Origin: a virus
Virus record (IMG/VR): IMGVR_UViG_3300048809_000064
Span: 1-35,689 of that record
Length of the DNA: 35,689 nucleotides
Direction: 5' to 3' (one strand)
Part shown: in pieces, positions 3,759 to 35,440 of the stretch
How the letters are laid out: each line of letters opens with the position of its first letter
Position numbering within the stretch: the first letter of the stretch is position 1
Translations under genes and position numbers: made by a program
The notes under the pieces: model-generated
Seen by the model: only the letters and a program-made list of their open reading frames with translations
What the model was told of the DNA's origin: nothing
The model's database searches: none

Positions 3759-4280
3759 ATGCTTATCCTAAACGAAACAAATACTCCTGTAGATTTAAAT
3801 CTCATACCAAATCAGTGTGATATTTATTTTTGGGTGTTTGACAATTCGGCGGGAGCCAAAGATTATTTTTGCGTTCCACTTATTATGCTAGAAAGTTTTT
3901 ATGCCCCAACAATCAAATTACGATTAACCAGCAACACAACACGAAAAAATCCAAAACAGTATTTTATTAATGTTCCTGCTGATTATCAAATTTTGATTGG
4001 AGAGGCATCCACTGGAAATCTTGAAATCAATCCAGTCACAAGTTTAAGTGGACGAGGATTCAATGCTTTCACAACAAATCCACTATCAAGTTTCATGGCC
4101 GAATACTTTCAAGTGGATGTTGAAGATGTACTTCCATCCATAAAATGGTTTTTACCAAAAATGAAAACTGGTCAAATTTTATGTATTCCATTTGAAAATA
4201 TTCCCAAACCAAAATGTATTTACTTGGTTCGTGATATGCCAAAGTCCTTAGAAATAATTCAAAATACGAATGCGTGGTAA
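3759..4280 (+). CDS. conserved-looking phage protein, unknown function
   Basis: A 173-residue protein I do not recognise. It is mixed alpha/beta with no signal peptide or membrane segment. Distinct phrases are QCDIYFWVFDNSAGAKDYF near the start and LCIPFENIPKPKCIYLVRDMP near the end. It follows uvsW by 40 bp but has its own strong sigma70-like promoter, so it is probably expressed early. The TAA stop is followed by a convergent endonuclease gene on the other strand. Confidence 0.7.
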   Translation: MLILNETNTPVDLNLIPNQCDIYFWVFDNSAGAKDYFCVPLIMLESFYAPTIKLRLTSNTTRKNPKQYFINVPADYQILIGEASTGNLEINPVTSLSGRGFNAFTTNPLSSFMAEYFQVDVEDVLPSIKWFLPKMKTGQILCIPFENIPKPKCIYLVRDMPKSLEIIQNTNAW

Positions 4281-9749: not shown

Positions 9750-10628
9750 TTATAGGGTGTCGAGATAGGCCAATTTAACTGCGAGTGAATTATAATCACT
9801 TGGAATTGCTTGTTCCTTATACAACCAACGATATTGATTACCTTGATAGGTATTCAAATAATTCGCAGAAGTAATGGTCTTCACATATTCTGTTGCTGTG
9901 CCGCTATTACCTTCAATTGTAACTGTAGGATTTACATTTACAATACCGGCTGTGAGAACGACTACTGCACCAGTTGATACTGCTCCACTAACTACGGTTG
10001 GTTCAGTAAAGGTTGGGGCGGTTTTTGCACCATTTACAATAAATGTTGCATCGGTATAACCAGCACCACCAGTTGCTACAGTTGCAGATTCAACACCAAA
10101 GTTGAAGCCAATAACTGCACCTGCGCCATTGGCAGAATTAGTAGTTGTTGCAATTGCAGCGACATTGGCTGGAAGTACGGTATAGCCTTGTGTTCCAGCA
10201 ACAGGAGCAGACACAGTTAGAACTGCGTTTGCACCATTTACAGTCAATACTTGAACATTGACAGCAGAAGTAAAAGTTCCACCAACCAAGGTAAGATAAT
10301 CAAGTGCTGCATAACCAGTACCACCACTTATAATAGTGGTTGCTGAAATTCCTTTGAGTTTTGCTGAACCAGTAGCAGGAGTTGTTGGAATTGTACCAAC
10401 TGGAAATACAGCAACATAAGATGTTCCGACAACAAGGTTGCCAGAGCCGTTGACAAATGTAGTAAGACTGCTACCATTTACTGTCGCGGCACGGAAACGA
10501 TGTGGAGAATTTTGTTTAGTTAAATAACCTGCGGTTGAGCCAGAATCGGCTGGTCCGTATACAGTTGCTTGAATTTGATGTGGTGCTGTTGCACCAAGAA
10601 AACGCTGCGCATTAATTGGGCGTCCCAT
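9750..10628 (-). CDS. virion structural protein with beta-rich repeats
   Basis: 292 residues, very rich in Thr, Val, Gly and Ala and almost free of Cys. It opens with MGRPINAQRFLG, a start pattern I associate with structural proteins of large aquatic phages. Two repeats of the form GGTGYAALDYLTLVGG / GGAGYTDATFIVNG followed by beta-strands suggest stacked Ig-like or fibre domains. A late promoter (CATAAATA, 10703-10710) lies upstream. A tail fibre, Hoc-like decoration or baseplate part is possible; the exact role is not known. Confidence 0.75.
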   Translation of the reverse strand: MGRPINAQRFLGATAPHQIQATVYGPADSGSTAGYLTKQNSPHRFRAATVNGSSLTTFVNGSGNLVVGTSYVAVFPVGTIPTTPATGSAKLKGISATTIISGGTGYAALDYLTLVGGTFTSAVNVQVLTVNGANAVLTVSAPVAGTQGYTVLPANVAAIATTTNSANGAGAVIGFNFGVESATVATGGAGYTDATFIVNGAKTAPTFTEPTVVSGAVSTGAVVVLTAGIVNVNPTVTIEGNSGTATEYVKTITSANYLNTYQGNQYRWLYKEQAIPSDYNSLAVKLAYLDTL

Positions 10629-34364: not shown

Positions 34365-34591
34365 AATACCAAATCGTAGTATATTACCCGCTATGGTGTG
34401 CCGAGATAATATAAACCATAAACTGAAAGAAAGGCAAGATATATGATAATTTTCTATTGACAAATGATAAATAACAGTGTAATATAAAAACATTAGAGAA
34501 GTACAAAGTAATTAAATACCAAATTGTAGGACAGCGCACTTCTGAGATGTGAGAGATAAACTTAATAAAATAACCAAGAAGGGAAAATAAA
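34365..34591 (+). repeat. gene-free stretch with two AATACCAAATNGTAG elements
   Basis: No gene. Element 1 at 34365-34379 is followed by stem TATGGT / ACCATA. Element 2 at 34515-34529 lies in the loop of AGAAGT / ACTTCT. Each follows its own promoter, so two short RNAs are likely. The same box occurs twice at 28.5 kb. Confidence 0.55.
34457..34485 (+). promoter_or_regulatory. sigma70 promoter with GATAAATA spacer, copy B
   Basis: TTGACA, 17 bp (AATGATAAATAACAGTG), TAATAT. It likely also transcribes the Pth2-like gene. Confidence 0.7.
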
Positions 34592-34918
34592 ATGCACTAG
34601 GATAATAACTACTTTTACATTTTCGTTAGGCAAGATTTAAGTCAAGCCCAACAGATTGTTCAAACTAACCATGCCACGTATCAAATGGCTATAACCCACC
34701 CACACAAAACAGATATTCCAAGTATCGTACTTGTTGGCGTTCCGAACAAAAATGCTTTGGAACGTGTAATCAAAAAATTACAATTGAATAACATTGATCA
34801 TATACCCTTCGTTGAACCAGATTGGGATATGGGATTGTCTGCTGTTGCAACTGCCCCAATTTCAGGGGATCAGAGAGATGCGCTCAAAAATTATAATATT
34901 TGGAGACAAAATGAATAA
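34592..34918 (+). CDS. Pth2-like peptidyl-tRNA hydrolase with in-frame UAG at codon 3
   Basis: Ribosome site GAAGGG lies 9 bp before ATG CAC TAG GAT. Past the UAG (34598-34600) the frame stays open for 105 codons. The reading starts DNNYFYIFVRQDLSQAQQIV, then QTNHATYQMA, matching the start of Pth2-type proteins (xxVRxDLsxaQxxxQxxHA), and continues with IVLVGVPNKNALERVIKKL and IPFVEPDWDMGLSAVATAP. Starting instead at the internal ATG 34685 would delete the conserved first 31 codons and leaves no good ribosome site. A CUA-anticodon tRNA lies 450 bp downstream. Pth2 enzymes recycle peptidyl-tRNA, apt in a tRNA-rich region. Confidence 0.75.
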
Positions 34919-34962: not shown

Positions 34963-35037
34963 GCGTCAGTAGCTCAGTGTTTAGAGCGTTTCCCATACGG
35001 GAAAAGGTCGGTGGTTCAAATCCATCCTGGCGCTCCA
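34963..35037 (+). tRNA. tRNA, anticodon ambiguous (CAU possible)
   Basis: Acceptor GCGTCAG / CTGGCGC, D-arm GCTC...GAGC, T-arm GGTGG-TTCAAAT-CCATC, TCCA. The anticodon arm TTTCCC-ATAC-GGGAAA folds to a 4- or 6-nt loop instead of 7, so CAU, UAC or ACG could each be read. Confidence 0.7.
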
Positions 35038-35039
35038 AT

Positions 35040-35113
35040 GCGTCGATAGCTCAGTGAAAGAGCAGTCGTTTTTAAACGATTGGTCGGTGGTTCAAGTCCA
35101 TCTCGACGCTCCA
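35040..35113 (+). tRNA. tRNA with 6-nt anticodon loop (UUU likely)
   Basis: Acceptor GCGTCGA / TCGACGC, T-arm GGTGG-TTCAAGT-CCATC, TCCA. Anticodon arm GTCGT-TTTTAA-ACGAT. Nearly identical D and T regions to the tRNA just upstream, so a tandem duplicate. Confidence 0.7.
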
Positions 35114-35116
35114 AAT

Positions 35117-35206
35117 GGGTTGGCAGTTTAATTAGAGAAAACATCATTGGTTTGCCCATTGTGGGCACCAGTGAAGACAGTGGTTCATAGCCATTCCAAC
35201 CCGCCA
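35117..35206 (+). tRNA. tRNA with hairpin in the anticodon loop (UGC or UGG)
   Basis: Acceptor GGGTTGG / CCAACCC, D-arm GTTT...AAAC, anticodon stem ATTGG / CCAGT, T-arm AGTGG-TTCATAG-CCATT, GCCA. The loop is 17 nt and self-pairs as TGCCC-ATTGT-GGGCA. Removing 10 nt would leave TTTGCCA or TTTGGCA (Ala or Pro). Confidence 0.6.
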
Positions 35207-35212
35207 AATTAT

Positions 35213-35354
35213 CCCCTCTAAACGCTAAGGAAGAGGACGGGTCGCCACCGTCAATAGCCGAGGATAAAGAAGTAGCACGGTGACTACTATGCCGAAAGGC
35301 AGAAGGCCAGTATTCAATCTGGCGGATCAGGTTCGACTCCTGATGAGGGGACCA
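35213..35354 (+). tRNA. 142-nt tRNA-like gene with large structured insert
   Basis: Acceptor CCCCTCT / TGAGGGG with ACCA and T-arm TCAGG-TTCGACT-CCTGA are clear. Between lie two anticodon-arm-like hairpins, GACGG-GTCGCCA-CCGTC and GCCAG-TATTCAAT-CTGGC, plus GTAG...CTAC and TGCC-GAAA-GGCA. Which arm carries the anticodon is uncertain (UUC if the second). Confidence 0.5.
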
Positions 35355-35365
35355 AAATTTAATAT

Positions 35366-35440
35366 GCGCCTTTAGCTCAATGATAGAGTACCAGCCTCTA
35401 AAGCTGCGGGATATGGATTTAAATTCCATAGGGCGCACCA
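35366..35440 (+). tRNA. amber suppressor tRNA (anticodon CUA)
   Basis: Regular 75-nt cloverleaf: acceptor GCGCCTT / AGGGCGC, D-arm GCTC-AATGATA-GAGT, anticodon arm CCAGC-CTCTAAA-GCTGC (CTA at 35398-35400, U33 and A37 in place), T-arm ATGGA-TTTAAAT-TCCAT, ACCA. Reads UAG. The charged amino acid is unknown. Confidence 0.85.

Follow-up and report, generated by a model that had tools for sequence, protein, structure and literature searches.

The locus

The window, meaning the whole stretch of DNA that was analysed, is a complete IMG/VR record of 35,689 bases and is a large tRNA-rich phage fragment. It carries a short Pth2-like gene with a UAG as third codon, followed by a tRNA array that includes a tRNA with the anticodon CUA. 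The features are as follows, all on the plus strand.

34579..34584, +, ribosome binding site AAGGGA, 7 nt 5' of the ATG, from sequence
34592..34597, +, start ATG (34592-34594) and codon 2, CAC, ahead of the UAG
34598..34600, +, in-frame UAG as codon 3, next base G (a purine)
34592..34918, +, Pth2-like gene, 108 aa with UAG as sense; Q is the placeholder residue at the UAG
34963..35037, +, tRNA with an anticodon loop 1 nt short and the anticodon undefined, same array (ARAGORN, Rfam)
35040..35113, +, tRNA with a U-rich loop, anticodon ambiguous between UUA and UUU, same array; possible ochre suppressor
35366..35440, +, tRNA with anticodon CUA (amber suppressor), ARAGORN; Rfam tRNA 59.4 bits; A73, CCA encoded

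The original prediction had described a good ribosome site leading to ATG CAC TAG with the Pth2 N-terminus in frame behind it, and every coordinate was right. The frame past the TAG is open until the TAA at 34916-34918, and the next start available without suppression is, as had been stated, an internal ATG: there is no in-frame ATG, GTG or TTG between the TAG and the ATG at 34685, where the frame's single code-11 ORF of 60 aa or more begins. That ATG is residue 32 and lies 3' of all the invariant residues of the beta1-alpha1 region (R13, D15, Q20, V23, Q24, H27, A28), so that a protein started there would lose the invariant residues of the first strand and helix. The CUA tRNA, placed about 450 bp downstream of the gene, was measured at 447 bp, with ARAGORN and Rfam in agreement on the tRNA.

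Two further elements of the array were noted. A tRNA-like element of about 143 nt at 35211-35353 (TCCCCTC ... GGTTCGACTCC ... GAGGGGACCA) was not matched by Rfam and resembles no sequence in the loci that were fetched; it may be a tRNA that carries an insert, or an RNA of the tmRNA type. A second degenerate tRNA-like sequence with a CCGCCA end, at 35115-35207, was called by neither ARAGORN nor Rfam. The array does not fit a pyrrolysine system: the CUA tRNA is canonical by Rfam and is without the tRNA-Pyl shape (unusual D arm, linkers), the ARAGORN label "tRNA-Pyl" being due to the anticodon alone.

The Pth2-like protein

The AlphaFold model of the protein has a pLDDT of 90.8 and a pTM of 0.85, and its 13 PDB matches at E<=0.001 are all Pth2-fold chains, with TM scores of 0.65-0.76. 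A profile of the family likewise found Pth2 chains in the PDB, and the PTH2 Pfam model (PF01981) matched 24 of 34 aligned family members at E<=1, the best at 1.7e-7; the window's own protein, searched alone against Pfam, had no match at E<=0.1. The fold and the N-terminal V-R-x-D ... Q ... H-A motif are shared with Pth2, and most of the invariant residues belong to the first strand and helix. The phage proteins differ in forming a short, divergent branch that lies behind a UAG and in having, by alignment to solved Pth2, a nearly invariant to invariant Gln (Q20) at the canonical active-site Lys position, four before the conserved Gln. In Pth2 that Lys is catalytic. The Pth2-like enzyme first proposed is supported as to fold, its activity as a peptidyl-tRNA hydrolase being putative, and because of the Lys replacement the protein is named Pth2-like rather than Pth2. 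Pth2 (PF01981) has been reported in jumbo phages (PMC7824862).

The early UAG in homologues

IMG/VR returned nothing to a close search with this one protein, and an alignment-based profile was needed to find homologues there. By tblastn against annotated phages, 30 records with a homologue were obtained. In ME3, the Serratia BF/Erwinia SNUABM group, Arash, Kaldavass, XbC2, CBB and GAP32 the gene begins ATG-x-(x)-TAG with the conserved strand in frame after it, and the same start is seen in the Pth2-like gene of the 595-kb LR756511; in the annotated phage records the gene is unannotated or begun at an internal codon. The profile scan of IMG/VR gave 65 homologous loci, many of them partial contigs, and a UAG stands between start and conserved strand in 52 of these 65, with UAA or UGA at that place in none. 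It is usually codon 3 or 4, a few loci having longer leaders of up to 11 codons, with the UAG up to codon 13, and in most homologues an AG-rich ribosome site comparable to that of the window precedes the ATG. The homologue alignment, proposed at the outset as a check, finds the codon 3 UAG kept in related and unrelated phages alike.

Codon changes just after the UAG, by codon position 1/2/3, number 52/7/229 and 8/20/108, and this third-position bias indicates that the stretch from the UAG to the internal ATG is coding. A stop that is conserved in frame, with the sequence beyond it constrained as coding, is the pattern of programmed readthrough.

Some members depart from the common arrangement. 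The Pth2-like gene of L099 (around 10001-10285) has its UAG in mid-gene, with a probable CUA tRNA lying upstream at a distance of about 1 kb, and that of the 735-kb phage LR756501 (L282) has UAG as codon 3 and a second internal UAG and adjoins two tandem CUA tRNAs. In a Neisseriaceae MAG contig (L290, 3650-3658) the homologue starts ATG CAT TAA, with ochre at codon 3; a UUA tRNA was not seen in the 30 of 49 tRNA places checked. In Myxococcus phage Mx1 (L280, about 3973-4010) a ribosome site is followed by ATG AAC CAT TAC CAT TGC TGA, and immediately beyond it the Pth2 frame continues in +1; from the sequence this looks like an early UGA with +1 frameshift of the RF2 type. Bixzunavirus mycobacteriophages (L279, 1468-1476; L281) have ATG TAG GTG at the Pth2 start and a CUA tRNA (annotated tRNA-OTHER) about 250 bp downstream, with about 190 sequenced relatives that grow on a laboratory host; they were left out of the count because the ribosome-site spacing favours the GTG.

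The CUA tRNA

With loci clustered at 90% protein identity, a CUA tRNA was found in 33 of 34 clusters with the UAG versus 7 of 16 without it (Fisher p=4e-5), an association as for a cognate suppressor that is imperfect on the UAG-less side. Every UAG-bearing isolate genome examined has a CUA tRNA, as do the huge uncultured LR756511, LR756500 and LR756501; for LR745206 the tRNA check covered 8.5 kb. The tRNA array is large, and where tRNAs are many, nearness to the gene counts for little by itself; in IMG/VR loci the closest tRNA, or the sole one, is often the CUA tRNA (L050, L056, L100, L102). Apparent exceptions were resolved, L058 and L070 carrying CUA tRNAs that ARAGORN missed and L091 having its own further along the contig. 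The CUA tRNA of L058 (10860-10963) has an extra stem-loop of roughly 30 nt between the anticodon and T arms.

Neither UAG nor CUA tRNA was detected in RaK2, Hallingskeid and LR745208, in which most, not all, tRNAs were read. Five phage types (L088, L096, L098, L104, L093) have a CUA tRNA and no UAG in the Pth2-like gene. Stenotrophomonas phage DLP5 carries a CUA tRNA (L185, 271-343) and has no Pth2-like or HD homologue and no clear suppressor target that could be found; its suppressor would serve another target. Atu_ph07 carries a UCA tRNA (PMC6102473), and a profile search found no homologue in it. Judged by eye, the CUA tRNAs come from several sources, and some have Trp-like ends (A1-U72, G73); this suggests that they have been recruited repeatedly.

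An HD-domain partner

RAS14 and XacN1 have a fused gene in which an HD-like domain precedes the Pth2 domain and whose first codons are ATG AAG TAG. In Tenacibaculum phage pT24 the fusion has the opposite order, Pth2-HD, and starts with ATG AAG TAG as well. Since the UAG is codon 3 in both orders, it marks the start of the gene and not a residue of a domain. Where the two are unfused, an HD gene comes immediately after the Pth2-like gene or overlaps with it, and in several phages this HD gene has its own UAG: at codon 47 in Mimasvirus/Eneladusvirus loci, at about codons 51-55 in L075-L077, L084 and L095, and at codon 3 or 4 in L047, L050, L087 and LR745206. HD genes of the ME3 and Arash types are without UAG. 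No HD gene was found in the window, which stops 249 bases past the CUA tRNA.

The model of the HD protein (pLDDT 94.7) has tRNA nucleotidyltransferase structures (3wfo-3wfs) as its nearest matches, with TM about 0.63 and E about 0.004. The likeness lies in the predicted fold and the HD motif; the phage protein differs in being stand-alone or fused to Pth2, without a nucleotidyltransferase domain, and in its weak Pfam HD score. The match is a weak but consistent hint, from modelling, at a role for the partner at tRNA ends. The L083 contig (G005) has two different tRNAs with UCA (opal) anticodons, and its Pth2 and HD genes are without UAG; a UGA before its HD gene was considered as evidence together with these tRNAs and was dropped, because that UGA ends a 135-codon gene.

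Stop context and UAG usage across genomes

Purines after a UAG favour suppression and U favours termination, by the classical context rule. The base after the recoded UAG in 36 dereplicated genes is G in 18, A in 17, C in 1 and U in none. Terminal UAGs of GAP32, BF, RAS14 and XacN1 served for comparison: a purine follows 35/36 recoded versus 24/64 terminal UAGs (p=5e-10), and U follows 0/36 versus 32/64 (p=1.6e-8). From this contrast in the +4 base, the phages appear to distinguish UAGs that are to be read from UAGs that are to be obeyed.

A permissive genome-wide scan for in-frame UAGs was swamped by antisense and shadow frames, of which codon-position and overlap filters removed a part, and conservation within two pairs of phages was used. 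After inspection of the matches listed for each pair, convincing conserved in-frame UAGs were present only in Pth2 and HD for GAP32/BF and only in the HD-Pth2 fusion for RAS14/XacN1; the other matches were judged by eye to be untranslated leader, tRNA or repeat DNA. As these are judgements by eye among the matches listed, it is strongly indicated rather than proven that the Pth2/HD module is the sole carrier of conserved in-frame UAGs in the paired phages. A genome-wide scan had accompanied the original prediction as a check, and its outcome in the two phage pairs agrees with that prediction.

A probable amber lock and alternative readings

Together, these findings lead to a reading in which 34592-34918 is an amber-locked gene whose UAG is read by the CUA tRNA, with the full Pth2-fold protein then made; a probability of roughly 0.87 is assigned to it. 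That UAG is read as sense, as first proposed with the phage's own CUA tRNA as decoder, we infer with high confidence from conservation, tRNA association and coding constraint. Ribosomes would start at the ATG at 34592 and meet the UAG as third codon; with host release factor 1 acting alone the product would be a dipeptide, and once the phage CUA tRNA had accumulated and been charged by a host synthetase, the UAG would become an amino acid and the full protein would follow. With gene and suppressor from one phage region, the arrangement would form a coherent feed-forward gate, the Pth2-like protein appearing once the tRNA array of the phage has been transcribed and its tRNAs charged, and not earlier. 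The protein, often with an HD partner, would most likely act on tRNA or peptidyl-tRNA, and would be useless or harmful before that point. We infer readthrough in vivo, its timing and the substrate of the enzyme from these patterns. The residue inserted at the UAG may, going by the identity elements of the tRNA, be Lys or Gln, a prediction of low confidence. The lock may serve timing, as first proposed, keep a harmful protein from leaking through, or provide feedback on suppression.

The last of these is the main rival to the feed-forward gate as to purpose, and it shares the readthrough mechanism. As in prfB (RF2), the gene would be a homeostatic sensor in which readthrough at codon 3 reports the strength of UAG suppression, and the product, a peptidyl-tRNA/tRNA hydrolase with the HD hydrolase, would counter damage or trim the suppressor in a feedback loop. 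Suppression of ordinary UAG stops would give readthrough products, and the lock is on tRNA-directed functions (the Pth2 fold, and an HD partner nearest to tRNA nucleotidyltransferase) and not on lysis or structural genes; in GAP32 and BF, moreover, real UAG stops are few and usually have U as the next base. However, genes ending in UAG show no excess of nearby backup stops, and several phages keep the CUA tRNA without UAG in the Pth2-like gene. A sensor is a possible but rather unlikely account of the purpose.

A very improbable reading is that the UAG is the true stop of a conserved leader mini-ORF, the main protein being re-initiated either from a non-canonical codon shortly after it or from the following ATG. 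Mini-ORFs of 2-3 codons affect peptidyl-tRNA levels, and an ATG or GTG does come right after the UAG in a few members (L058, L100 and the mycobacteriophages). In most members, however, the codon after the UAG is a non-start (GTT, GTC, AAT, AAC, ATT, ACC, GAT), and the next start drops invariant residues. The purine after the UAG favours suppression over termination, the mini-ORF would leave the association with the CUA tRNA without explanation, and UAGs in mid-gene (codon 47 of HD; L099) cannot be leaders.

Still less credible is genome-wide amber recoding (code 15), with the Pth2-like gene as one of many. Jumbo phages with code 15 and CUA tRNAs do exist (PMC9523058, PMC13037316), but under code 11, genes with 100 aa or more account for 78-85% of GAP32, BF, RAS14 and XacN1 and 72% of the window, UAG terminates genes in all five (12 in GAP32, 11 in BF, 14 in RAS14, 27 in XacN1 and 3 in the window), the larger ORFs of the window have no internal UAG, and the pair scans gave no other convincing conserved in-frame UAG among the matches listed. 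This rejection applies to those four phages and the window; in the LR7565xx phages, which are very large, code 15 may be in use.

Sequencing error, nonsense mutation or a decaying gene might be supposed from the window as one contig, but the UAG is found at this place in numerous isolates and metagenomes of independent origin, and the sequence behind it is under purifying selection. This refutes the supposition for the family and leaves it next to no probability here.

Relation to known systems and significance

The amber-locked arrangement can be set beside three known ones. In code 15 crAss-like and jumbo phages a phage-encoded CUA tRNA reads UAG as sense, and a role in late-gene timing has been suggested (PMC9523058, PMC10879173). 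The tRNA and its reading of UAG are alike; many genes there contain UAG, whereas the phages tested here keep UAG as a stop and confine the in-frame UAG to one dedicated module of one or two genes, at or near the start. An engineered E. coli feed-forward loop, with a stop codon in the target and a co-expressed amber suppressor, forms a leak-proof AND gate (PMC7969014); that loop is synthetic, and the phage case would be a natural counterpart. The third is the prfB gene for release factor 2, in which an early in-frame UGA is passed by a +1 frameshift. It likewise has a conserved early stop in a translation-factor gene and expression that depends on the decoding state, but the phage gene has in-frame readthrough of UAG and a dedicated tRNA in the same genome.

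No report of such an arrangement of Pth2, UAG and CUA tRNA was found in the open literature, subscription papers being outside the scope of the search. The target of the suppressor tRNA could not be found in the papers on XacN1 (PMC5852040) and Summit (PMC9022506), and the authors on RsoM2USA noted only that UAG is abundant (PMC8504454). The present comparison identifies, at the level of sequence, the HD-Pth2 fusion gene as the putative target in XacN1.

In summary, an early stop in a Pth2-like gene, usually with a CUA tRNA nearby, recurs in many unrelated large bacterial viruses. Beyond what was first proposed for this locus, the comparison adds the HD partner, with its own UAG or fused, the UAG at the start of fusions, and the purine bias at +4. 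It is fairly probable that standard-code large phages use an amber suppressor chiefly, or even exclusively, to unlock a single tRNA-maintenance module, made of the Pth2-like gene alone or together with an HD hydrolase, as a natural, widespread and gene-specific lock with UAG placed at gene starts, in fusions and in mid-gene in several lineages. Genome-wide amber recoding is already known, and it is the gene-specific amber lock that differs. XacN1 and many other phages would gain a concrete suppressor target, one that is invisible to normal gene callers, so that the question of what these suppressors read becomes directly testable, and amber decoding would be linked to a module of tRNA-directed hydrolases in phages that infect Gammaproteobacteria and Bacteroidota.
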